A stretch of 36,453 bases of DNA from Synechococcales cyanobacterium PMM_0083 (GTDB taxonomy: Bacteria > Cyanobacteriota > Cyanobacteriia > Leptolyngbyales > Leptolyngbyaceae). This document shows, piece by piece, positions 5,797 to 35,743 of the stretch. Location: positions 1-36,453 of the forward strand of contig CASBQE010000161.1 in NCBI GenBank assembly GCA_949127665.1, in the 5' to 3' direction. Both the position numbers and the translations under genes were made by a program. The notes below the pieces were generated by a model that was not told where the DNA came from, made no database searches, and saw only the letters and a program-made list of their open reading frames with translations. Within the stretch, counting starts at the first letter, position 1; each line of letters opens with the position of its first letter.

Positions 5797-7122
5797 CTAC
5801 CGCGATCGTTGAACACTGGCTTGCTTGCCCGTAGTCGGTTGATTAGGACGTGCCAAGATAATTCTCTCTAGAGCAGAAATCGCACCTGAATACTGAGGAT
5901 CTTGCAAGGTTGCTAGCAACTTAGGATTCGATGACAACGTTTGTTTGTCCGCTTCGGTCAGGTCAATCTTGACATCAGGAGTGATCCCTTTATGGCTAAT
6001 GTCAGTGCCTTTTGGCGTGTAGTAATGAGCGATGGTCACTGCTAACCCTGACCCATCTGCAAGGTTATGAACTGATTGCACCAAAGCCTTACCAAAGGTT
6101 TGGCTACCAACGACCGTTGCACGACCATTATCTTTCAAAGCACCCGTCAAAATTTCGCTAGAGCTTGCAGAATTACCATCCACGAGCACAACCAGTGGCA
6201 ACTTGGTTAAAGCAGTTTGATTAGCGGAGACCTCTTCGTTTTTGCCGCGACGATCAACGGTACGAACGATCGCACCTTCTCCCATCCACATCCGGCTGAT
6301 TTCGATGCTGGACTGCAATAAACCACCTGGATTACCGCGCAGATCTAGCACAAATCCATCTGCCTTTTGAGTCTGCAAGTCTTTAATGGCGCGCCGCATT
6401 TGGTCTGCTGCATGGGAACTAAATTCGTTTAAACGAATATAACCAATATTGCTTTTGCCTTCTTGCTTTAGAGAATATCTTACCGTTGCCAACTCAATCC
6501 GAGCGCGAGTAATGGAGACCACAAAAGGCTGTCCTTGATCCCGACGAATTTCCAGACTAACTTTTGTGCCAACATCGCCACGAATCAAATTGGAGGCGTT
6601 CTCTACCGTCATGCCCTTCGTTAGTTTGCCGTTGATCGACATAATGCGATCGCCCGACTTGAGACCCGCTTTAAGGGCGGGTGAATTTTCAATCGGCTCT
6701 ACTACCGTCAATGCTTTTGTTTGTTCAGGAACTTCTAGGCGAATCCCAATCCCAGAAAGCTCTCCAGATGTTTGATTAGTTAATGCCTCATACTGCTTTG
6801 GATTCATGAAGCGAGTGTAGGGATCATTCAGCTTTTCTAGCTCTTTACGAAGCGCTGCATAAGCCTGATCACGAGAACTATATTTTTTGTCTAAAAGGCG
6901 CTGTCGAACCTGTTGCCAATCAACTCGATTAAATGTTTCGTCAACGTATTCGCGATTCACAATTTGCCAGGCTTCATCCAGAACGGCTTTAGGACTATCC
7001 TGCAAAGCTGCCCGCACACGACCCAGACCAGGACCAAACAAGGAAACTGCGGCAGTAGCTGCGACTGCTCCTCCACAAAGCGCCAATTTTGAGAGTGAAA
7101 CGTGCTTCAGGGTTCGGTTCAT
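5797..7122 (-). CDS. Carboxyl-terminal processing protease (S41, PDZ)
   Basis: A C-terminal processing serine protease of the lumen or periplasm. In cyanobacteria CtpA cuts the D1 precursor of photosystem II, while CtpB and CtpC have other targets. The protein has an export signal ('LALCGGAVAATAAVSLF'), a PDZ domain ('GIGIRLEV', 'SGDRIMSINGK') and the S41 core with nucleophile serine in 'NSASSSEI' and general-base lysine in 'GKALVQSV'. I prefer the ATG at 7122 ('MNRTLKHVSL') over the track start at 7206, because the extra 28 residues precede the signal peptide and lack homologue-like features. 'EAWQIVNREYVDETFN' resembles CtpB/CtpC more than D1-processing CtpA. A paralogue lies at 33.1-34.4 kb. 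Confidence 0.9.
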   Translation of the reverse strand: MNRTLKHVSLSKLALCGGAVAATAAVSLFGPGLGRVRAALQDSPKAVLDEAWQIVNREYVDETFNRVDWQQVRQRLLDKKYSSRDQAYAALRKELEKLNDPYTRFMNPKQYEALTNQTSGELSGIGIRLEVPEQTKALTVVEPIENSPALKAGLKSGDRIMSINGKLTKGMTVENASNLIRGDVGTKVSLEIRRDQGQPFVVSITRARIELATVRYSLKQEGKSNIGYIRLNEFSSHAADQMRRAIKDLQTQKADGFVLDLRGNPGGLLQSSIEISRMWMGEGAIVRTVDRRGKNEEVSANQTALTKLPLVVLVDGNSASSSEILTGALKDNGRATVVGSQTFGKALVQSVHNLADGSGLAVTIAHYYTPKGTDISHKGITPDVKIDLTEADKQTLSSNPKLLATLQDPQYSGAISALERIILARPNQPTTGKQASVQRSR

Positions 7123-7586
7123 TAGAAATAACTCAAAGATCTGATGGATTAATTTTCTACCGTACAGATGTCTTACGTGTGTCTTACATGCGTCTACAAG
7201 AAGCAAATAGTTTCAAAACGCATGAAGTTTATTACAGGTGCAAACTGACTTCAACCGGAAAACCTTGCGAAACTAGCACACAATCCGGCTAATGAGCTTA
7301 GAATAGCGAAACCAACGGTTTCAAATTGCTCCAGAGGATGCCAGTTCTCAAACTGTCCTACCTGATTAAGTTAGCCAGTAGAGCAGGCGAAGTCCTAAGA
7401 TCTATCTTATAGTTCTTGCGCTAATTTAACCGAATATCATTGAATTTGCATAGGTCTAAACCGTAAACTTTGCTGAAGTTTTTGAATAGCTTTGAATTTC
7501 CTCTTGCTATCCCACCAAATACAACCAGGCAAAATTAAATTACATTGAATTTAGGAAGTCATAAGGATTTTGCGAAAGGTTAAAAG
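7123..7586. other. Intergenic region between divergent genes
   Basis: About 460 bp without a convincing gene. It must hold the divergent promoters of the ctp gene and the membrane-anchored protein that follows. I see no RNA gene, repeat array or clear operator; the ORF-track frames here lack family resemblance. Confidence 0.5.
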
Positions 7587-13149: not shown

Positions 13150-13619
13150 TTTTCTCAAGCCTTTAGATGTATGTGTATTTGTGGGGCAAGAATCGTTTTT
13201 GTTCTTTCCTAGTGACATACGAATGGGTTAAGCGATCGGATTAAAGTTTTTTGCCAGGTTGCAAACGACCCGACTGATGTTCTTAATGGGTTCACATCCA
13301 GTCGCATCCAATTCTTGCTATCACACGTAATTTAGATAGGAAGTGATGTGTAGATTTGAAATTGTGGGTGTTTTCATGAACTAAAGTGAAATTCTTGAGC
13401 AAATAGCGTTTAGCCTAAATTGGGCATTGATTGGTTTCTTCTTTTTAGGCAGGACTTAGGCAAATCAACCGAATTTGCCCTCCAACCTCCAATTCTGGGG
13501 GATCTAGAGATCAAAGTCCCCCAGAATTGTGGGATCTAGGGGGCGAGTGCATAAGTCCTGTATCTAAAACTGCTGCTCAATCAGGGTTGATGTAGAACTT
13601 GTCTCAAAAACGTGAATCT
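13150..13619. promoter_or_regulatory. Divergent control region of the sigma/anti-sigma genes and the redox cluster
   Basis: This 470-bp region separates the minus-strand cluster from the ECF sigma gene, so both promoters must lie here. The half nearest the sigma gene is occupied by a palindromic mini-element (13450-13560). I could not identify a convincing pair of matching ECF-type -35/-10 boxes in both directions by eye. Confidence 0.45.
13450..13560. mobile_element. 111-bp palindromic MITE-like element
   Basis: The ends are CAGGACTTAGGCA (13450-13462) and TGCATAAGTCCTG (13548-13560), inverted copies with one mismatch. Inside, AATTCTGGGGGA (13491-13502) pairs perfectly with TCCCCCAGAATT (13517-13528). 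Small elements with GGACTTA-type ends are widespread in filamentous cyanobacteria. It has no coding capacity. It ends 59 bp before the sigma-factor ATG and so may alter that gene's promoter or leader RNA. Confidence 0.75.
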
Positions 13620-14198
13620 ATGAATTTCGAGCCTTCTGATTCGCCCCCAATTCCCACTGATGCGGAGTTGTTTCAGGCGATGCAAGCTAAACAGCACTCT
13701 GCTCTGGCGGCGCTTTACGATCGCTACGCTAGCCTAGTGTATAGATTGGCGTTGAGAGTTTTGCTGAATCCGCAGGAAGCCGAAGATTTGACTCAAGAAA
13801 TTTTTTTGAAACTTTGGCGCAGCAGCACCTATGACGTAAACCGAGGTTCTTTAAGCAGTTTTTTGACCACCTTGACGCGATCGCGGGCAATTGATCGACT
13901 CCGTTCACGCAGCAGCAATCTCAAGTCTCTTCAGCGCTGGGGCAACACCATGACCACTCAACCGCCGCCGACCACACCGTTTGAAGCCGCATCCATCCAT
14001 CAACGTTCGGAGCATGTACGCGATGCCTTGGCTGACCTGCCCGAAAAGTATCGACAAATCCTGGAGCTGGCGTATTACGAAGGGCTGAGCCAGTCAGAAA
14101 TTGCTGCCCGGTTAGAGATTCCCTTGGGAACGGTGAAATCCTGGTCGCGCCAAGGATTGCTCACCCTCAGAAAAACCTTACAGACCTGGATTGAATAA
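13620..14198 (+). CDS. ECF sigma factor (SigK-like)
   Basis: A 192-residue extracytoplasmic-function sigma factor with only regions 2 and 4. Region 2 holds 'ALYDRYASLVYRLALRVL', 'EAEDLTQEIFLKLWR' and 'SFLTTLTRSRAIDRLRSR'. Region 4 holds 'LPEKYRQILELAYYEGLSQSEIAARLEIPLGTVKSWSRQGL', including the helix-turn-helix. The ATG at 13620 is favoured over the TTG at 13599 in the track. The anti-sigma gene begins 7 bp downstream, which fits co-transcription. Its likely regulon is its own operon plus the divergent redox cluster, judged from arrangement alone. Confidence 0.92.
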   Translation: MNFEPSDSPPIPTDAELFQAMQAKQHSALAALYDRYASLVYRLALRVLLNPQEAEDLTQEIFLKLWRSSTYDVNRGSLSSFLTTLTRSRAIDRLRSRSSNLKSLQRWGNTMTTQPPPTTPFEAASIHQRSEHVRDALADLPEKYRQILELAYYEGLSQSEIAARLEIPLGTVKSWSRQGLLTLRKTLQTWIE

Positions 14199-14205
14199 TC
14201 GCGTT

Positions 14206-14961
14206 ATGGCTGAACCCATTTATCCTGAATCGTCCTATTCTGAACATTCGCACGAGCTAATGGCTGGTTACGTATTGGGCAATCTTACGTCTGAGGAAGC
14301 TGAAGAGTTGCAGCAACTCTTGGCTGCCCATCCCGAACTAGGCGAGGAAATGCACAGCCTGCAAGATGTGCTGGCAGCGATGCCCTACGCCCTACCGGAA
14401 GTGCAGCCTGCCGCAGCGGTGCGATCGCGCATTCTCACCGCTGCTCAAAATCAAGCAGTGCCAATTCGTCGGCGCGATCGCCGCCAGTCAATGATTCTAT
14501 GGGGCGGTAGCATTGCCGCCGTTCTCGCACTGGCGATGGGATTAGACAATTTGAATTTGCGGCAACAGCTTGCCACGACTCAAGCCAAGATTTCCTCCCA
14601 AAAAGACCTGATTGCCATGCTGCAAGCACCCCAAACTAAGTTGGTGAATTTAAAAGGCATGGATCAACTGGCGAAAGCGACGGGAAATGTAGTGATTACG
14701 CCGGGAGAAGCAGGGGCGATCGTCGTGCTGCAAGATCTGCCAACCCTACCACCCGGACAAACCTATAACCTCTGGGCGGTTGCCAACGGTCAAAAGGTTT
14801 CAGCGGGAAATTTCACCGCAAATCCCCAAGGCAGAGTATTTGTGAAGGTGCCTCTAACCTCAGCAACCAGCGATCGCGTCACCAATCTCGTTGTCACGAT
14901 CGAAGCTTCGCCTACACCAGTTTCGCCTCAAGGTCCGATGGTGATGACTAGCAGCCTGTAA
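14206..14961 (+). CDS. RskA-type membrane anti-sigma factor
   Basis: A 251-residue single-pass membrane protein. The cytoplasmic anti-sigma domain occupies about residues 10-90 ('HELMAGYVLGNLTSEEAEEL'). A membrane helix lies near 97-115 ('MILWGGSIAAVLALAMG'), then a short coiled segment ('LRQQLATTQAKISSQ'). The C-terminal extracytoplasmic RskA domain runs from 'GAIVVLQDLPTLPPGQTYNLWAV' to 'VTIEASPTPVSPQGP'. In this family the outer domain senses a signal and the sigma factor is freed by proteolysis or weakened binding. I see no zinc-binding HxxxCxxC motif, so direct redox sensing of the ZAS type is unlikely. The ATG at 14206 is used instead of the TTG at 14191. Confidence 0.9.
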   Translation: MAEPIYPESSYSEHSHELMAGYVLGNLTSEEAEELQQLLAAHPELGEEMHSLQDVLAAMPYALPEVQPAAAVRSRILTAAQNQAVPIRRRDRRQSMILWGGSIAAVLALAMGLDNLNLRQQLATTQAKISSQKDLIAMLQAPQTKLVNLKGMDQLAKATGNVVITPGEAGAIVVLQDLPTLPPGQTYNLWAVANGQKVSAGNFTANPQGRVFVKVPLTSATSDRVTNLVVTIEASPTPVSPQGPMVMTSSL

Positions 14962-16778: not shown

Positions 16779-19700
16779 TTACCAGCCAAATTGCGTTGGG
16801 GCGATCGGTTCAATATCGGGATCATTACCGCCAATTTGGTTGGTTCGCAAAACCCAGAGGGTGGCACCTTGATCGAGGAACTGTTTCGCGATCGCCTCAC
16901 TGGCAACGCGGGGTAATAGAGTTCGCCAGCTTCGCAAACCAACCGATACTCCTTGAAAAAAGTCTTCCTCCGGGCTAATCCCTAAACTAGATTGATTGTT
17001 TTGCCAGTCGGCACGAGCAGAACCAAAGGGCAATAGTTTTTGCCGAATTCCTTCGGTCAGTTTGATCAGTTGCTCAAACCGTTCTGCCTCACCGGGATCG
17101 TCTTGCAGTTCTTCCACAAATTTAGGGTCAGATTGAATCGCATTACGAACTCGCTTAAGTGCCGCATACAAAGCTTGATTAGAATCCTGACAGCAATTGT
17201 GAGCTGGTCCCACATAGGTGCCGCCTGTGCCATCGCCAATTCGGTATCGCGCAATCATCACTTCAAGCTCGTAAAGCAGCACATTTAGCACGGAATATTT
17301 CTTGCCATAGACATCGAATGCGCCTGTAAACGACTCCAATTTGATCAGCACATCGCACACGGGACGAGTGCCCAGCCAGCCTATCTGGCGATCGCCCATA
17401 AATCGATTCCAGGCAAATCGTCCGGCTACAATGCCATCAATATTGTGGGAATAAACCTGATGGTATTGAATATCAAACTTTAATTCATCCGCCAGCGGCT
17501 CTCGAATCACTGTCGCCACACCATAGGCAAAGTGCCCAAAGAAAATGGGAGTTCTGGCGGCGGGTTCTCGTTTTTTGCCACCAATGCCGCCGTACACATG
17601 CAGGACAAGGGCGCGATCGCCTTCATTCCAAAATTGTGAAGCAGGAGATAGCGGTTCCAGGCTTCGGGTTAACTCCTGCGGAGAGGCTACGCGAACAGGT
17701 TTCAGGGTGTGGTCAGGGATTGCATCCTCTGTTTCCTGTTCCCTATTCCCTGTTTCCTCCGCCCCTACCAACATTACGGATTTAATTTGTCCCTTTTTGC
17801 CTTTGACTTGCCATGCTTGTTTTTTGAGGTAACGCCAAGATTTTTGTTTGCCGATGATGACTTTATCTGGCAAGAGACGGAAAAGGGCGCGGGGCGCGAT
17901 CGCCTGCACAACAAACATTCCATTGGCATCTTTCGCGCCATAGATGTACCATCCCGTCTCATTCAGCGGCATTTTTTCAATATCGCGAGTTGTGGAAGGA
18001 TAGCTGCCATATTTGGACAAAACCACTTGGGGAAAGGAAACGATTTCTTCAGCGCCGTTAAATTGATGAGTGGCGCGATCGTAGTGAGCTACCCGAAAGA
18101 GTCGAGAGGTTTGAATTGCCGGAGCAGCAAGGATCGACGTTGAAGCTGCGTTGGTGATTGTTAAGGTTTCTACGGCTGTCTGAGATTGAAGTTCGGCAAC
18201 CTGAAGAATTTTGACTAAACCATAGTAGCGCCCAGTGATTTGTAATGGTTCTCGGTTAATCCGCAGCCCATAAGCAGGGTGATCCTCTTGACTATTGTCT
18301 GCGGATTGCACCTCTACAAAGTCGGTCAGCGCCACGATTACATCATCGTTGGGGCGTGCGCCTGCCAGCGATTCTAATGGATCAACCTGCTGCCAATGGT
18401 TGAGGCGATCGGGATGAATCACGCCTTGCCGCTGGCTATCTTCGGCTTCTTGGCTAAAATGCACCGCTTTGGTTGTTGTTTTCACAAATCGCTGAGTTGC
18501 GGCATCGCTGCTCCAGCAGAGGGGAATCACTTTTCCGATCAAATGCTGATACTCCGTTGGAGCGTGATGCACTTCAAACCAAACGCCGCGAAGGGTATAG
18601 CGCTCTTGAGGAGTGGGAAGAATTAATCGTCCCAGCCAGGGCGCGATCGCCTGGTATAAACCAGGGTCAACTGTTTGATCCAGCGGGTAAAACTCTGGTC
18701 GATTAAAAGCAGCTTGCTGATATAAATCGTAGTGGCTCGGCGTGGTTGCCCTAGCCGCCGACACCACCGCTGAAGTTCCTTGAAGAATGCCAGAAATCAC
18801 TTCAACGGTTTGCTGGAGATGCGTTCGTCCATCTGGCAGTCGTGCTTCTGCCCCATAAGGACCGTTGGCGGCATTGTGCCCCACGGGTCCGAGTGAAATG
18901 AAGCTAATTTTGCCCCGTGCCTTTGCCCGATTCCAGTAAGACAAAAAGAGCAGTTGCCAACGGCGTGGAAAGATAACCGGACCCTGTTTCTCGACTAAAT
19001 CGTTGTCGCCGACGATGTGATAGAGATGCTCTACCGCCAGCAGATTATGATTGCCGCTAATTACACCTGCCAAAGACACCAACTCGATTGGGGCTGCTAA
19101 TGCCCGTTTCACATAAGGAGCCGCTCCCGCCGCCATTTGTCCACCACCGCTGTAGCCCAAAATTGTGATGGGGATGCCACATCCTCGCCAATAGCCATGA
19201 TGAATCAGGCTATCGTAAATCATTTGGGCAGTTGCCTGGTTGTAGATCGGTCCATAGCGCTGATCGGCTGCCACGCCTACAATCAACGTGTTGCGAATAT
19301 TGATTGTGACTCCAATTAAGAGACCAAAAATGCCCCCGGAAGCGGTCATTTGATAGTGATCGGCTTTGCGCCAGAGAAAGGATAGCCAGCGGTCTTCAGT
19401 CAGGGGCTTATTCAGGACGCTGTAAGGCATCAGCCCGCGAATTAGAGCAATGTCATCGGGTAAAGCGATCGCTAGCTCATTCAAAAAAATTTCCACTTCT
19501 GGAAGATATTGGGAATGAGATTGACAGATCCCATCCAGATAAATCACATATTTGCGGATGTCAGTGTTTTCAGGAATTGGCTCTTCTAACGTGCCGGGAT
19601 AGCTTGCGGTATCTAAGTCATCGTCATACCAGCCTGCCCACCAACCCAATGCTTCCAAGGGAATCAGCAATCCGGCAAACATTAGGGTGATGATCAGGAT

Positions 19701-19865
19701 AGAAATAATTTGTAGGGAAAAGTTCCAGGTTGCGGCTAAGCCCGCTAGGGTTAGGGTGATTGCTAGCAAAACGCCCTGAATCACAGTGCTAAATCCGATA
19801 ACCAAAGAGAGGACGAGGGTAAATAAACCTAGCCCAATCCAGCGAGAGATTTTACGGTTGCTCAC
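16779..19865 (-). CDS. Large membrane-anchored protein with alpha/beta-hydrolase-like motif, function unknown
   Basis: A 1028-residue protein. Two or three N-terminal membrane helices (about 10-70) precede a domain with a serine-nucleophile elbow, 'LGYSGGGQ' (S239), and 'GPVGHNAANGPYG', which could supply a histidine, as in lipase-like alpha/beta hydrolases. The middle is beta-rich and the C-terminal part has 'GTGGTYVGPAHNCCQDSNQA' (H889, C891, C892), followed by helices. Around residue 700, 'ETGNREQETED' comes from a translated heptamer array. The start is a GTG overlapping the stop of the upstream Yip1-like gene, which indicates translational coupling. I do not know its substrate. A surface-associated lipase or protease role is possible, but the catalytic triad is not established. 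Confidence 0.7.
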   Translation of the reverse strand: MSNRKISRWIGLGLFTLVLSLVIGFSTVIQGVLLAITLTLAGLAATWNFSLQIISILIITLMFAGLLIPLEALGWWAGWYDDDLDTASYPGTLEEPIPENTDIRKYVIYLDGICQSHSQYLPEVEIFLNELAIALPDDIALIRGLMPYSVLNKPLTEDRWLSFLWRKADHYQMTASGGIFGLLIGVTINIRNTLIVGVAADQRYGPIYNQATAQMIYDSLIHHGYWRGCGIPITILGYSGGGQMAAGAAPYVKRALAAPIELVSLAGVISGNHNLLAVEHLYHIVGDNDLVEKQGPVIFPRRWQLLFLSYWNRAKARGKISFISLGPVGHNAANGPYGAEARLPDGRTHLQQTVEVISGILQGTSAVVSAARATTPSHYDLYQQAAFNRPEFYPLDQTVDPGLYQAIAPWLGRLILPTPQERYTLRGVWFEVHHAPTEYQHLIGKVIPLCWSSDAATQRFVKTTTKAVHFSQEAEDSQRQGVIHPDRLNHWQQVDPLESLAGARPNDDVIVALTDFVEVQSADNSQEDHPAYGLRINREPLQITGRYYGLVKILQVAELQSQTAVETLTITNAASTSILAAPAIQTSRLFRVAHYDRATHQFNGAEEIVSFPQVVLSKYGSYPSTTRDIEKMPLNETGWYIYGAKDANGMFVVQAIAPRALFRLLPDKVIIGKQKSWRYLKKQAWQVKGKKGQIKSVMLVGAEETGNREQETEDAIPDHTLKPVRVASPQELTRSLEPLSPASQFWNEGDRALVLHVYGGIGGKKREPAARTPIFFGHFAYGVATVIREPLADELKFDIQYHQVYSHNIDGIVAGRFAWNRFMGDRQIGWLGTRPVCDVLIKLESFTGAFDVYGKKYSVLNVLLYELEVMIARYRIGDGTGGTYVGPAHNCCQDSNQALYAALKRVRNAIQSDPKFVEELQDDPGEAERFEQLIKLTEGIRQKLLPFGSARADWQNNQSSLGISPEEDFFQGVSVGLRSWRTLLPRVASEAIAKQFLDQGATLWVLRTNQIGGNDPDIEPIAPTQFGW
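17730..17757. repeat. Heptanucleotide tandem repeat (TGTTCCC-type)x4 inside the 1028-aa gene
   Basis: TGTTTCC, TGTTCCC, TATTCCC and TGTTTCC run head to tail within the coding frame. It is the third translated STRR-like array of this window, each with a different heptamer. Confidence 0.85.
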
Positions 19866-28248: not shown

Positions 28249-28515
28249 ATGAACCTCTCTCCCAACCTGCAACAAGCGATCGCTCAAATTGCAGCCAGCC
28301 AAGGTATTTCACCAGAGCAGTTTATTATCCAAACCCTGACAGAAAAAATAGATCGCCTCAAGCAACCCGTTCCAACTGCCTCAATGTCTCAGACTGGACT
28401 GAGACAAAAAGAAGGTCTTCTGGTCTTCGACACCGAGTCCCTCGATCACGTTGACTTTGATTCACTGATCACTCGAAGTCGTGAAGAATGTAACTGGGAG
28501 CAGATAGGACTGTGA
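28249..28515 (+). CDS. VapB-type antitoxin
   Basis: An 88-residue protein. Its N-terminal half ('LSPNLQQAIAQIAASQGISPEQFIIQTLTEKI') looks like a ribbon-helix-helix or similar DNA-binding segment. The C-terminal half, with acidic and Trp residues ('REECNWEQIGL'), would wrap the toxin. The call rests mainly on its size and position: it ends with a 4-bp overlap with the PIN-domain gene, the classic antitoxin-toxin order. It would repress its own operon and neutralise the toxin. Confidence 0.75.
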   Translation: MNLSPNLQQAIAQIAASQGISPEQFIIQTLTEKIDRLKQPVPTASMSQTGLRQKEGLLVFDTESLDHVDFDSLITRSREECNWEQIGL

Positions 28516-28952
28516 AAGTTCTATTTGACACGTCTGTGATCATTGCTGCTTCGCTTCCAAAGCATCCAAACCACGCCCCATGCTTTGTCCAACTACAGGC
28601 GGCAAAACTGAGTCAAATTCAAGGTTGTCTTTCTACCCATAGTCTGGCAGAACTCTATTCAGTAATGACTCGTATGCCTAGCCAACCTCGAATGTCTCCT
28701 CAAGAAGCCAGAACGTTAATTGAGAGCTACCTCCCATATCTGAAAGCGATTCCATTAGGAACAGCAGATTATCAAGCCGCGCTCGCTCAAATGGCTACCC
28801 TTAATCTACCGGGGGGTGGGATTTTTGATGCCTTAATCGCTCAAGCTGCTCTCAAAATATCAGCAGCCAAAATTCTGACGCTCAATTCCAATCACTTTAC
28901 TCGATTAAATGCTGCGATCGCCCAGATCACACCGGTTCCTGGAGAGGATTAG
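28512..28952 (+). CDS. PIN-domain ribonuclease toxin (VapC-type)
   Basis: A 146-residue PIN-domain protein, probably an RNase that blocks translation when free of its antitoxin. Acidic active-site residues are D6 ('VLFDTSVIIA'), E47 ('SLAELYSVM') and D106 ('GGGIFDALIAQAA'). The fourth position has N125/N127 ('LTLNSNHF') instead of Asp, as in many cyanobacterial members. Its GTG start overlaps the antitoxin stop. The pair is bracketed by direct repeats of the cofH 3' end, which points to acquisition by recombination. Confidence 0.88.
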   Translation: MKVLFDTSVIIAASLPKHPNHAPCFVQLQAAKLSQIQGCLSTHSLAELYSVMTRMPSQPRMSPQEARTLIESYLPYLKAIPLGTADYQAALAQMATLNLPGGGIFDALIAQAALKISAAKILTLNSNHFTRLNAAIAQITPVPGED

Positions 28953-28980: not shown

Positions 28981-30156
28981 TCAGGCTACGGCACCGATAC
29001 CTTGTGAAACCTGAAGCATGGCTGGATGAATCGGCTGATAAAGCGTGTCTCGCTGTTGATGAGGTCTGTGAATGGAAGCGATCGCGCCCTGCAACTCTGC
29101 GACCTCCAAACAAGTGCCACCTTGAGCGCCTGCCATCGTCGTAATGTGTTCTTCCATCAAGGTGCCGCCCAAGTCATTGCAACCCCACTGCAAAGCTTCG
29201 ACGGCTCCGGCTAAGCCCAGTTTGACCCAGCTCGGCTGATGGTTGACGATCCACCGCCCAAAAAACAGTCTAGCCACAGCAGTTAAATGAAGCGTGTCAG
29301 ATAAAACTGGCTGATCGCGCCCAACCCGGCGACGGAGCGGTTTGGGCGCGGATTGACCCACGAAAGGCAGCAGAATAAATTCTGTGATGTGAGCGGGATA
29401 GTGATTTTGGATGGCAGTTTGTTGCAGCGATCGCACTTGCTCGAAATGGCGAATCTGCTGGGCTGGGGTTTCAATGTGACCCGATAGCATCGTGCTAGTG
29501 GTGGGCATTCCCAAACGGTGCGCGGTGCCCACAATCTCTAACCAAGTCGCGCTATTCGTCTTTTCGGGACAGAGAACTCGCCGCACGTCATCATCCAGCA
29601 CTTCTGCCGCCGTTCCCGGCATAGAGCCAACTCCCGCATTTTGTAATGCGCCGATCACTTGGGAATAACTCAATCCATCTTCTCGTGCAATAAATTGAAC
29701 TTCTTGGGGTGAAAACGCATGAAGATGCAGAGTTGGAAATTGCGTTTTGATGCCAGAAATTATCTGGGTGTAATAAGCCAAGGACGTTCCGTTGACTTTC
29801 GCTTTCAGGTTCAAGCCGCCCTGCATACAGATTTCAGTGGCTCCGCGTTGCACCCCATCCGCCGCTTTTGCCAAAATTTGCTCTAGATCTAGCCAAAAAG
29901 CGCCCTCTTCTCCTTCATCTCGCCGAAACGCACAAAAGCTGCAATGTTGTTCGCAGATGTTGGTGAAGTTAAGGTTGCGGTTGACGACATAGGTGACTGT
30001 TTCCCCTACTAGATCTCGGCGGAGTTGATTTGCAGCCTCTCGGATTTGCAACAGTTCGGCAGGCGATCGCGCATCTAGCAACATAACCCCATCGCCCACC
30101 GATAAATCTTGCCCTAAAAGTGCGCGTTCCAGAATAGACTCAACCGTTTCAATCAT
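28981..30156 (-). CDS. cofH: FO synthase subunit 2 CofH (radical SAM)
   Basis: CofH joins 4-hydroxybenzyl from tyrosine to 5-amino-6-ribitylaminouracil, on the way to the deazaflavin FO, which cyanobacteria use as an antenna in DNA photolyases. The 391-residue protein has the radical-SAM cluster C68-x3-C72-x2-C75 ('[12 protein letters not shown]'), '[12 protein letters not shown]', '[12 protein letters not shown]' and '[14 protein letters not shown]', all typical. The ATG at 30156 ('[13 protein letters not shown]') replaces the TTG start of the track. The partner CofG is not in the window. Confidence 0.93.
28983..29085 (-). repeat. Direct repeat, right arm (within cofH)
   Basis: The native 3' end of cofH, matching 28081-28183. 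It marks the right boundary of the toxin-antitoxin segment. Confidence 0.9.
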
Positions 30157-30199
30157 CACAAGGGTTTCAGCTAGCAATATCAACCTAGCCTAACGCAGC

Positions 30200-30961
30200 T
30201 TACTCGTCTGGGAGGTAAAGCATCCCTAAAAGCTGATCGGCATGATCTAAATTGCCCACAATGCGGCGAGTGGGTTGAGGCCACGCTCTGACAAGGGTTG
30301 GAGTGGCGGTCACATGGTCGATTTCAGCCTGTTCTGGATGCTGAGTTACATCGATAACTTTCAACGTGTAGGGCTGATTGAGCGATCGCTCTAGCAAAGC
30401 ATGAATTTTGTGCAACGTCCGCTCTGTTGCCATGCTGTGCCCTGATACAAATAATCTCAGCACATAGCCTTGGGGATTGGTCGATTCCTGGCGAGTGGTA
30501 GCTCCTAGCTTAAACAAAGGAACCGTTGGAGTATGGGAGGCTGCTCGCTTGTATTGCACCACGAGATCGTGAGATTCCCAGAGTTGAGGGAAGCGATCGC
30601 GGTAAGTGGTCAGCACCATCGGCTCACACATTTCTAGTTGCAGTGGCGCAACCTGCCAGATCAGGTCATGAAAGCCAAACACTGCATTGAGCAACGGTTG
30701 ATAGTGGAAAACCAAGGGTGAAACTTCTGCGATCTGCTGCAACTTCTGCGTGTGCGGATCAAAAAACTGATCTACCGTTGCCCCATAGCAAGGCACTAAA
30801 AAGTGAGGAGGTTCAGACAATCCCAGTAGATTTTGCAGCATTCCACAAAGATCCAGATGCCAACGCACCTGCTTTTGGGGATCAATGCAGTAGATTAGAT
30901 CGCCGCCGGGAGTAAACAACGCAATGCCTTTGAATACCTCCGGCGATCGATCTAAAATCAT
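30200..30961 (-). CDS. KaiB-fold protein with unknown N-terminal domain
   Basis: A 253-residue protein. Residues 166-249 resemble the KaiB/SasA-N thioredoxin-like fold: 'YVLRLFVSGHSMATERTLHKI' opens it, followed by 'YTLKVIDVTQHPEQAEIDHVTATPTLVRAWPQPTRRIVGNL', as in KaiB. The first 160 residues form a separate domain I do not recognise ('VFKGIALFTPGGDLIYCID'). KaiB proper is about 100 residues and works with KaiA/KaiC, which are absent here. The ATG at 30961 is preferred to the TTG at 30979. It follows pilT by 26 bp on the same strand, so a role in pilus or motility control is suggested, not shown. Confidence 0.8.
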   Translation of the reverse strand: MILDRSPEVFKGIALFTPGGDLIYCIDPQKQVRWHLDLCGMLQNLLGLSEPPHFLVPCYGATVDQFFDPHTQKLQQIAEVSPLVFHYQPLLNAVFGFHDLIWQVAPLQLEMCEPMVLTTYRDRFPQLWESHDLVVQYKRAASHTPTVPLFKLGATTRQESTNPQGYVLRLFVSGHSMATERTLHKIHALLERSLNQPYTLKVIDVTQHPEQAEIDHVTATPTLVRAWPQPTRRIVGNLDHADQLLGMLYLPDE

Positions 30962-30987
30962 AGCCAAGGGCTTGTTCAAATCGTAAG

Positions 30988-32358
30988 TTACACCCGCCCC
31001 CGCAGAATTTGAGCCATTTCATTTGGTTTTGGCGACATTTCCAGCGCTGTCTCCTCGGTAATCATGCCCGCTTCATAAAGCTTGTAGAGGGATTGGTTCA
31101 TATTACACATCCCATCAAAGGTACATCGCGGCATTAATTGCTCAACTTCGTCGAGATCGCCCCGGCGGATGTAGTCTTTAATCGCATCGGTGTTAATCAA
31201 AATGTCGTGGAAGGCAGCGCGTTTACCATCCGTTGTGCGGCATAGCCCTTGAGAAATGACCGCAACCATAGATTCTGCGATCGAAACTCGAATTGGCTCC
31301 TGCTGATCGGGTTCAAAAAGCTGAAGAATCCGCTCGATGGTTTTGACGGCGCTGTTGGTGTGCAGTGTGCCCATAACCAAGTGCCCCGTTTGAGCGGCTT
31401 TGAGGGCAGTGTTGACGGTTTCGCGATCGCGCATTTCCCCAATCAAGATCACATCTGGATCTTCCCGCAAAGCAGCTTTGAGGGCATTGTCAAACTTGCG
31501 CGTGTGAATGCCCACTTCGCGATGTTTGATCAAAGCTTTTTTACTGCGATGCACAAACTCAATTGGATCTTCAATCGTAATAATATTTTTAGGCATCTCC
31601 TTATTCATATAATCCACCATTGCCGCCATCGTGGTGGATTTGCCTGAACCTGTCGGTCCAGTAATTAAGATTAAGCCTTTGTGATAGTGGCAAATATCCT
31701 TGAAAATAGGCGGCAGATTCAATTGCTCAATCGTGAGAATTTTCATGGGAATCAGCCGCATCACCATGGCAGGACCATAGAGTGAATCGAAGATGTTAAG
31801 CCGAACCCGCGCAAAATCGTATTGGGTCGCACCATCAAACTCTAGCGTTTCTTCAAACCGATGAATTTCTGCATCGGTGAGGATTTCTTGAAGCCAGCTA
31901 TAGAAGGTCTCGCGATCGGTATCGGGCCACGCCGTGTGATCCATTTCTCCCCGATTTCGATAGCGGGGCACTTCGCCAACCCCAACGTGAACGTCGGAAT
32001 ATCCTTTATCAAAAGCGGTACGCACCAGTTCAGAAAGAGTTGGCGAACCGTTTGTAGGAACCCGACGAGAAGTGACAGGTGCAGGTGCAGTGGGTGCTGC
32101 CGTAGAACGGTGCCCAGCGGCAGGGGGCGCTTGCGGCGGAGAAGACGAAATGACTGTAGCTGTTCCACCGAGATGAGCAGGAGGAGCGTGGGGCGACACC
32201 ATTGTTGCACTATCCGCAGCGGAAGAGACCATCGTTGGAGGGTTCATTTGCTGAGTAGCAATAGCTGTTGCTCCATTATTTACGGCTCTTGGTGGTGGCG
32301 GAGCAGGAGGAATCCGGGACGGTGGGGGAGCACTAGGTTGACGCTGGGATTCAGTCAT
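30988..32358 (-). CDS. pilT: Type IV pilus retraction ATPase PilT, with proline-rich head
   Basis: A 456-residue hexameric secretion ATPase that drives pilus retraction in twitching and phototaxis. Walker A 'LITGPTGSGKSTTM', the Asp box 'DPDVILIGEMRDRETV', and the His box 'GHLVMGTLHTNSAVKTIERILQLF' are intact. Unusually, the first 100 or so residues are Pro/Ala/Thr-rich low complexity ('PPPSRIPPAPPPPRAV'), longer than typical PilT and probably a flexible docking tail. Cyanobacteria often have two PilT paralogues, and I cannot say which this is. The 466 bp upstream hold no gene. Confidence 0.92.
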   Translation of the reverse strand: MTESQRQPSAPPPSRIPPAPPPPRAVNNGATAIATQQMNPPTMVSSAADSATMVSPHAPPAHLGGTATVISSSPPQAPPAAGHRSTAAPTAPAPVTSRRVPTNGSPTLSELVRTAFDKGYSDVHVGVGEVPRYRNRGEMDHTAWPDTDRETFYSWLQEILTDAEIHRFEETLEFDGATQYDFARVRLNIFDSLYGPAMVMRLIPMKILTIEQLNLPPIFKDICHYHKGLILITGPTGSGKSTTMAAMVDYMNKEMPKNIITIEDPIEFVHRSKKALIKHREVGIHTRKFDNALKAALREDPDVILIGEMRDRETVNTALKAAQTGHLVMGTLHTNSAVKTIERILQLFEPDQQEPIRVSIAESMVAVISQGLCRTTDGKRAAFHDILINTDAIKDYIRRGDLDEVEQLMPRCTFDGMCNMNQSLYKLYEAGMITEETALEMSPKPNEMAQILRGRV

Positions 32359-33054: not shown

Positions 33055-34440
33055 CTAAGGTTTCGTTTCTGCCCGTGGAGCCTGGAGCCGAGCAGCCTGA
33101 ATCTTCTCCCCTAAAACTCCCACAGCTTTAGCAACTTGAGGGTCTTCTAACGTGCCAACCTTATCTCGATTGGCACTTAGCTGCTTTTTCTGCGCTTCAG
33201 TAAGTGGAACTTCCACATCTGGGTCGATACCGTGCTTGTTGATATCACGACCATTGGGAGTGTAATACTTGGCGATCGTCACTGCCAATCCACTGTCTTT
33301 ACCCACTTGCCGGACAGATTGCACTAACCCTTTACCAAAAGTTTTCGTGCCAATCAACACTGCACGACGATTATCTTGCAGCGCTCCAGACAGAATTTCG
33401 CTGGCACTAGCCGAGCCACCATCGACCAAAACCACTAAAGGCTTGTTCGTCAGCGATCGCCCGTTTGTTTGCTCCTTATCTTGCTCGCCAGTGCGACTTT
33501 TTGTAGAGACGATCGCGCCCTTTGACATCCACATCCGAGCAATATCCACGCTGGTGTACAAAAGCCCGCCCGGATTGCCGCGCAGATCTAAAACATAGCC
33601 TGCAACCTGCTGTTTCTCTAGCTGCTTAATCGCCTTTTCCATATCCATTGGGGCATTCGCGCTAAATTGCACTAACCGGATATAGCCCACCTTGCCTTGA
33701 GGCGATGACAATTCACTTGATTTAACCGCATGAATTTCAATCCGCGCCCGTTTAATTGCATAATCCTTTTGCTCAGTGCCGCGCAAAATTGTTAGGTTTA
33801 CGGGTGTTCCCACGGCTCCGCGAATCAGCGTCACCGCTTTGTTCACATCCATGCCTTCAGTACTTTTGCCATCAATTTTGAGGATGATGTCTTTAGATAG
33901 AATGCCAGCCGTGAAGGCAGGAGAATCTTCAATCGGAGCAATCACCGTTAATTTTTTCGTTTTTTCATCTGCCGCGAGTTGAATGCCTACCCCGGTCAAT
34001 TCGCCAGAGGTATCAATCTTCATATTTCTAAACTCTTGGGGATCCATGAAGCGGGTGTAAGGATCTCCAATTTTTTTCACCATTTCGCGAATGGCTTTAT
34101 AAGCATCTTCGTTGCTAGAGTACGATCGCTTTAGGTAGTCATTTCGCACCTTTTTCCAATCCACCTGGTTAAAAGTGCCGTCTACATAAGTGCGATCAAT
34201 AATTTGCCAAACCTCGTCAACCAGTTCCTTGGGGCTTTGGTTAAAGAAAGATTGCAGCGAGAGCATAGACATCGGCTGAAGCGCAGTATCCTTATCTGAG
34301 TCGGCAACTTGCTGCCCAGAGTCATTACTCTGCAACAACGCTTGTCCTTTGAAAAAGTGCAATCCAGTGCCTGCGATCGCGGCAGTAGAAACGGTTACTG
34401 CGGCGGCACCAAGGACAAGCCCACGTTTTATAATTGCCAT
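33055..34440 (-). CDS. Carboxyl-terminal processing protease, second copy
   Basis: A 461-residue paralogue of the protease at 5.8-7.1 kb with the same layout. The export signal is 'GLVLGAAAVTVSTAAIAG'. The PDZ domain contains 'GVGIQLAADEKTKKL', and the S41 core has nucleophile Ser in 'GGSASASEILSGAL' and Lys in 'GKGLVQSVRQV'. The opening 'ELVDEVWQIIDRTYVDGTFN' is typical of CtpB/CtpC. Which of the two corresponds to which needs a tree. It precedes ispG's neighbour position by 64 bp on the same strand; cotranscription is possible. Confidence 0.92.
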   Translation of the reverse strand: MAIIKRGLVLGAAAVTVSTAAIAGTGLHFFKGQALLQSNDSGQQVADSDKDTALQPMSMLSLQSFFNQSPKELVDEVWQIIDRTYVDGTFNQVDWKKVRNDYLKRSYSSNEDAYKAIREMVKKIGDPYTRFMDPQEFRNMKIDTSGELTGVGIQLAADEKTKKLTVIAPIEDSPAFTAGILSKDIILKIDGKSTEGMDVNKAVTLIRGAVGTPVNLTILRGTEQKDYAIKRARIEIHAVKSSELSSPQGKVGYIRLVQFSANAPMDMEKAIKQLEKQQVAGYVLDLRGNPGGLLYTSVDIARMWMSKGAIVSTKSRTGEQDKEQTNGRSLTNKPLVVLVDGGSASASEILSGALQDNRRAVLIGTKTFGKGLVQSVRQVGKDSGLAVTIAKYYTPNGRDINKHGIDPDVEVPLTEAQKKQLSANRDKVGTLEDPQVAKAVGVLGEKIQAARLQAPRAETKP

Positions 34441-34504: not shown

Positions 34505-35743
34505 TCAGCGCTCAACTGACTCTGGCTCAACCCAACGCCCATCCGATTTAATCAGATCAATTAACTCCTCAACTCCGTCTGCTTCTGGCACCCGCTTAAT
34601 CTCTTCTCGCCCCCGATAAAGCGAGATATAGCCTGCTTGCTTACCCACATAGCCATAATCCGCGTCTGCCATTTCGCCGGGACCGTTGACAATGCAGCCC
34701 ATGACAGCAATATCCAACCCTGTCAAATGGTTTGTGGCATCCCGCACTTTATGCAGAACTTCTTCAAGGTTAAACAGCGTGCGTCCGCAGGAGGGACAAG
34801 CAACGTATTCCACCATGGTTTTTCGCAGCCCCAAAGCCTGCAAAATGCTGTAGCACACTGGGATCTCTTTTTCGGGGGCTTCGGTCAAAGATACTCGAAT
34901 GGTGTCGCCCAGCCCTTCGGCTAACAGGGTGGCGATTCCCGCAGTCGATTTGATCCGTCCATATTCTCCATCTCCTGCTTCAGTCACGCCCAAATGCAGG
35001 GGATATTCCATGCCCTGCTCGTCCATCCGCTGAGCCATGAGGCGGTAAGCTGCCAGCATAACGGGCACACGAGACGCTTTCAGAGAGATGACAATGTTAT
35101 GAAAATTTAATGACTCACAAATCCGAATAAATTCAAGAGCAGACTCCACCATGCCTTCGGGAGTGTCGCCGTAGGTGAACAGCATCCGCTCTGCTAGGGA
35201 GCCGTGGTTTACGCCAATTCGCATGGCTTTGCCTTGATCTCGCAGGGAAATAACTAGCGGTTCTAAGGTTTCCCGAATCTTGTCGCCAATGTCGCCAAAC
35301 TCGGAGTCTGTATATTCGGTGCGATCGCTCTTTGGCTTTTCAAAGACATATAACCCAGGATTAATCCGAACTTTATCAACGTGTTTTGCCACTTCTAGGG
35401 CAATTTTCATACCGTTGTGATGAACATCGGCAACTAAGGGCACGGGTTGGTAGGTGGCAAGCAGCTTTTGCTTGATTTCGGCGAGGGCGATCGCGTGAGC
35501 CATGCTGGGAACCGTTACCCGCACAATTTCACAGCCAATTTCATGTAAACGGCGAATGCCAGCCACCGACCCGGCAATATCCAAAGTGTCTTCGTTAATC
35601 ATGGATTGAACTACGACCGGATTGCTACCGCCAATGGTGATGCCACCCACCTGTACAGGGCGAGTTTTACGGCGGTGAATGGTGCCATCGGTGGAGTAGC
35701 GGGAAGAAACAGTAGATGTGAGAGGATTAGATAGGGTTTGCAT
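34505..35743 (-). CDS. ispG: 4-hydroxy-3-methylbut-2-enyl diphosphate synthase IspG
   Basis: IspG (GcpE) converts MEcPP to HMBPP in the plastid-type MEP isoprenoid pathway; in cyanobacteria its electrons come from ferredoxin. The 412-residue length fits the bacterial two-domain form. The [4Fe-4S] ligands appear in '[17 protein letters not shown]' and '[21 protein letters not shown]'. The N-terminal TIM barrel begins '[22 protein letters not shown]'. The product feeds carotenoid, phytol and quinone synthesis. The ATG at 35743 is convincing. Confidence 0.96.

Follow-up and report, generated by a model that had tools for sequence, protein, structure and literature searches.

Conserved pairing of an elongated KaiB protein with the pilus ATPase gene pilT2 in cyanobacteria suggests that the daily clock and surface pili are connected

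The window, by which we mean the whole stretch of 36,453 nucleotides analyzed here (contig CASBQE010000161.1), comes from Synechococcales cyanobacterium PMM_0083, whose genome assembly (GCA_949127665.1; G000 below) comprises 4.6 Mb on 484 contigs and is 86% complete. On the minus strand it carries an open reading frame with a KaiB domain (30200-30979), for which we use the working name KBP; this follows directly on a gene for a PilT-family ATPase and is followed by cofH (Table 1). The coordinates that an earlier note on this DNA had given for both reading frames were confirmed. The same note had placed KBP 26 bp behind pilT, a spacing that holds if translation begins at the ATG at 30961. An in-frame TTG at 30979 reduces the gap to 8 bp and is the more likely start, because the closest relative (G001, 86% identical) lacks an in-frame ATG at the corresponding place yet keeps the stretch 'LNKPLA'.

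Table 1. Features of the pilT2-KBP locus; positions are those of the window.
Feature	Position	Strand	Details and basis
KBP, elongated KaiB (KaiB-4)	30200..30979	-	259 aa from TTG 30979, 253 aa from ATG 30961; open reading frame, Pfam KaiB, 8UBH match, relatives
N-domain of KBP, cyanobacteria-specific, residues 13-145	30545..30943	-	predicted b-b-a-b-b-a-...-b, pLDDT 88
KaiB domain of KBP, residues 171-256	30212..30469	-	Pfam; predicted b-a-b-a-b-b-a, low pLDDT; no cysteine
pilT2, PilT-family ATPase, 456 aa	30988..32358	-	TIGR01420 455 bits; outside pilBTC
Proline-rich N-terminal tail of PilT2, about residues 1-105	32044..32358	-	sequence
cofH (FO synthase subunit 2), next downstream of KBP	28981..30183	-	NCBIfam PRK07360 519 bits
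ctpA-like S41 peptidase, upstream of pilT2	33055..34440	-	Pfam; gene order
ispG-like gene, next upstream of ctpA-like	34505..35743	-	open reading frame; family name given from sequence alone

The ATPase clears the TIGR01420 cut-off of 319 bits, so that its naming as a PilT stands; it is, however, not the primary retraction motor. A profile search of the genome recovered four PilT-family matches, among which PilT1 sits between pilB and pilC on contig C386 and is thus ruled out as the neighbor of KBP. PilT2 is defined by a proline-rich N-terminus and a location outside pilBTC (2025 review, PMC12288463), and because the window protein has both, it is identified by sequence and position as PilT2. 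Its long proline-rich tail had been noticed before, but lies at the N-terminus. Nothing that we tested distinguishes this copy from PilT2 of the Synechocystis sll1533 type, with which it shares the proline-rich N-terminus, the PilT family and the location outside pilBTC. The function of PilT2 is listed as open in the same review, which records inverted phototaxis in a Synechocystis PilT2 mutant and suspects a possible secondary mutation (PMC12288463); in a two-hybrid assay PilT2 bound Rre6, a response regulator in phosphomimic form (PMC7656254). Two further PilT-like ATPases of this genome (G000:C283:6-806 and G000:C267:2963-4009) share 51% and 45% identity, respectively, with PilT2, the one on C267 having two tandem PilT N-domain-like stretches; neither showed linkage to KBP in the stretches examined.

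The KaiB-like C-terminal domain proposed for KBP was borne out by Pfam: residues 175-253 match PF07689 (E=3.3e-26), scoring 91.3 bits where the cut-off is 27. With TIGR02654, the equivalog model of the canonical clock KaiB, the protein scores 64.1 bits, under the cut-off of 145.3. Its best sequence match in the PDB is 8UBH, or KaiB-TV-4 (E=5.5e-23), and the exact 8UBH sequence is found at a Thermosynechococcus-like locus (L203) in an open reading frame that carries the same N-domain and lies directly after pilT2. KaiBs of about 250 aa with an N-terminal extension of ~150 aa, conserved in cyanobacteria only, were described in Schmelling 2017 (PMC5520375). The name KaiB-4 comes from Wayment-Steele 2023 (PMC10808063), which reports the domain as a stably fold-switched monomer solved by NMR (8UBH) and leaves the biological role of the protein open. 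The exact match in the orthologue places KBP, by sequence, in this described family of elongated KaiB, or KaiB-4, proteins. It has the length of about 250 aa, the ~150-aa cyanobacterial extension fused to KaiB (as judged from a scan of 244 genomes of the phylum) and a C-terminal KaiB domain near KaiB1.

With KaiB1, the canonical clock KaiB, KBP shares the fold, the core ATPTL...P.P..RRI.G and three fold-switch prolines; it differs in falling below the TIGR02654 cut-off and in being fused, and whereas KaiB1 switches folds, the orthologue of KBP is held in the switched state. The KaiC-binding histidine kinase SasA likewise fuses an effector module to a thioredoxin-like KaiB-fold domain, which in SasA docks on KaiC. 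Unlike SasA, the 259-aa KBP has no kinase domain found by Pfam and carries its KaiB domain at the C-terminus. It also stands nearer to KaiB1, with 42% identity to Te KaiB (the Te entry taken without its first seven letters) against 29% to the SasA domain encoded in its own genome. A redox thioredoxin was ruled out, as residues 170-259 contain no CxxC and no cysteine. The third match to the KaiB profile in this genome, on contig C479, is itself a thioredoxin (WCGPC). At one further locus (L033, G030:C14:62853-63571) the coding sequence of KBP runs through three different frames, reflecting frameshifts or assembly errors.

The fusion of the KaiB domain to an unfamiliar partner also held up: the first ~165 residues match no Pfam family, and the N-domain finds nothing among PDB sequences below E=0.05. 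Modelled alone (pLDDT 88), it is predicted to form two strands, a helix, two strands and a helix, followed by a C-terminal part of helices and a strand. A Foldseek comparison of this model with the PDB returned nothing significant, the nearest structures being ADF/cofilin folds (E=0.05-0.2, TM about 0.38). The domain is strongly conserved, with a mean column identity of 79% over 41 relatives, and is always fused to KaiB, all its intact matches in the 244 genomes falling in open reading frames of 240-320 aa. In the full-length model the KaiB domain takes the order b-a-b-a-b-b-a, that is, the fold-switched, thioredoxin-like topology, with a pLDDT of about 43-67 there, and the best fold matches of the model are 8UBH and structures of fold-switched KaiB bound to KaiC. 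The fold-switched state is the KaiC-binding state of KaiB (PMC10808063 and PMC11551320), and its demonstration by NMR (8UBH, PMC10808063) concerns the Thermosynechococcus orthologue alone.

To place the locus in a wider context we used 244 genomes spread evenly over the phylum, of which 69 encode the KBP N-domain and 99 pilT2. In 63 of the 69, representing 19 of 19 families, pilT2 lies directly upstream of KBP on the same strand. The same arrangement holds at 69 of the 74 evaluable loci in a set of 80 named ones; at the other six the contig breaks off immediately before KBP on its upstream side. The gaps between the two genes are generally short, reaching 100-300 bp in Nostocales. The surrounding genes vary: the order ispG-ctpA-pilT2-KBP-cofH is shared, in a gene-order comparison, with some Leptolyngbya-like genomes only, many Nostocales and some Oscillatoriales have a UDP-GlcNAc-epimerase-like gene upstream of the pair, and other genes occur elsewhere. 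Among 29 KBP loci from across the phylum with 1.5-kb flanks, 26 include pilT2 and one includes cofH; the latter was rejected as a functional partner, its linkage being restricted to some members of the family to which the window belongs. Thus, the conserved unit is the pilT2-KBP pair itself, and its linkage is far beyond chance; the neighborhood conservation that the earlier note had proposed as a check of its idea is clearly present. Co-occurrence of the two genes is also significant over the phylum (p=7e-29), mostly reflecting its non-photosynthetic members, and within the photosynthetic class (p=6e-4 without correction for phylogeny, over about 118 genomes as counted from the KaiC table). 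Because these statistics carry such biases of membership and phylogeny, we build our argument on adjacency and on gene losses.

The adjacency in all 19 families points to a connection of surface pili with the daily clock, and the pairing joins two open questions, the role of KaiB-4 and the function of PilT2. The KaiB-4 family is already described; for its association with pilT2 a search of an open-access library found no report, an absence that is no proof. In their available text, PMC5520375 contains no words for pili or motility and PMC10808063 none beginning with 'pil', and the passages on these KaiBs are silent on pilT2 as a neighbor. In Nostoc carneum NIES-2107 the pair is found on a 554-kb plasmid record (L108, AP018181.1).

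KBP outlives its neighbor in several lineages. In two genomes of one genus (G083 and G258) the site where pilT2 would be expected, flanked by a conserved upstream gene and by KBP, is without it, with PilB and PilT1 remaining; the dN/dS of about 0.15 between their KBP genes, though from few substitutions, shows purifying selection on KBP in this pair after the deletion. A reduced genome of 3.0 Mb (G209) has a degraded pilT2 fragment before an intact KBP and no T2SSE-family ATPase at all, and such ATPases are likewise absent from the complete chromosome of Anabaenopsis elenkinii (L113), which has KBP intact. Sphaerospermopsis kisseleviana (L069) retains only a pilT2 fragment beside an intact KBP, its relative L074 having an intact pilT2, and a metagenome-assembled genome (L090) is also devoid of PilT2. 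In sum, at least four lineages have lost pilT2 and kept KBP intact, and two of these lack type IV pilus ATPases altogether. These losses indicate, at the level of gene content, that KBP has a role requiring neither PilT2 nor pili, and they do not support the earlier note's proposal that the KaiB domain is there to dock on the PilT ring. All five KBP genomes without pilT2 that were tested for KaiC encode it (L069 lay outside this test). The natural losses offer ready-made strains in which to seek a pilus-independent role. In a 2.8-Mb genome of the same genus as G209 (G175), both KBP and the adjacent pilT2 are broken remnants (L196, G175:C1:1969550-1970499) and KaiC is intact.

We tentatively read KBP, with a probability of about 0.4, as a SasA-like adaptor whose fold-switched KaiB domain docks on KaiC and whose cyanobacteria-specific N-domain is the effector, PilT2 being a frequent but not obligatory client. 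The analogy is drawn because KaiB, once fold-switched, occupies the same site on the CI ring of KaiC as the SasA domain does (PMC6378743). The KaiB domain would dock on this ring when it is in its KaiB-binding state, so that KBP would be held or released by time of day, and the N-domain would then act on an output, passing on the time-of-day information. Since pilT2 and KBP are so consistently neighbors, the commonest output may be PilT2-dependent pilus behavior, such as the direction or load of retraction, and the two proteins are probably made from one transcript. Consistent with such an adaptor are the Pfam KaiB domain and 8UBH match, the fold-switched orthologue encoded after pilT2, the adjacency in general, the persistence of KBP after pilT2 loss and the co-presence of KaiC, which under a strict cut-off is encoded by 68 of the 69 genomes with KBP. 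KBP also keeps the KaiB1-type K207 and R238/R239, missing from the SasA domain of its own genome, and K207, which corresponds to Te K43 (numbering after PMC6378743) and lies on the strand pairing with KaiA and CikA, is invariant in 41 sequences; Te K58, highlighted in the structural literature, is replaced by Q/H/I, which counts against the adaptor. Also against the adaptor, the co-presence of KaiC discriminates little because KaiC is near-universal in the class, 34 of the 99 PilT2 genomes lack KBP, with many cyanobacteria having KaiC and PilT2 without it, and KBP has decayed in G175 despite an intact KaiC.

A more specific form, in which KaiB-4 would directly link the circadian oscillator to the type IV pilus motor, its fold-switched KaiB domain reading KaiC and its N-domain controlling PilT2, so that the clock would act post-translationally on motility or phototaxis, appears rather unlikely to us. 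The physical version of this, with the N-domain contacting PilT2 (for instance its proline-rich tail) and the KaiB domain contacting KaiC so as to join clock ring and motor, would give the clock an output targeting a motor protein rather than working through transcription. The constant fusion of the N-domain to KaiB, its many invariant aromatic positions, the tail on PilT2 and the resemblance to ADF/cofilin-type folds would suit it; that resemblance is, however, non-significant (best E=0.05), KBP is kept without PilT2, and genomes without KBP (L199, L200) have a tail just as rich in proline, so that we hold this bridge to be unlikely. A profilin-like N-domain binding the tail was rejected for want of a significant fold match and because the tail also occurs without KBP.

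It is similarly improbable that the two genes share their regulation only, being co-transcribed and both needed in one phase or state (e.g., the motile phase, or dawn and dusk), with no physical or functional contact. The common strand, the short gaps and the survival of KBP after pilT2 loss fit this well, and a weak scan of the minus strand over the junction found nothing resembling a promoter; yet one would expect an uncoupled operon to have fallen apart more frequently across 19 families, and the Nostocales gaps could hold separate promoters. We know of no KaiB-fold domain that binds a PilT-family ring. Most doubtful is direct docking of the KaiB domain on the PilT2 hexamer to tune retraction independently of KaiC, which the very strong adjacency, the side-by-side decay in G175, the ring-binding nature of the fold-switched state (PMC10808063) and the acceptance of a regulator, Rre6, by PilT2 (PMC7656254) would favor, but which sits poorly with KBP persisting in at least four lineages without PilT2, two of them without any T2SSE-family ATPase, and with PilT2 occurring without KBP in 34 of 99 genomes.

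A possible parallel between Kai proteins and pili comes from archaea, where KaiC-like ATPases, accompanied in other archaeal genomes by a KaiB-like thioredoxin-family component, are encoded near an archaeal type IV pilus locus (PMC4858521). Elsewhere in the 36-kb window, CtpA-like S41/PDZ carboxy-terminal-processing proteases are encoded twice (5797-7206 and 33055-34440, both on the minus strand). A likely toxin-antitoxin pair (28249-28952, plus strand) consists of an 88-aa protein with weak similarity to HicB/FitA-type antitoxins that overlaps a PIN-domain protein (PF01850, E=6e-12). A 1028-aa open reading frame (16779-19865, minus strand) has no Pfam match at E<=0.01, and an ECF-type sigma factor is followed by an RskA-type anti-sigma factor (13599-14961, plus strand).
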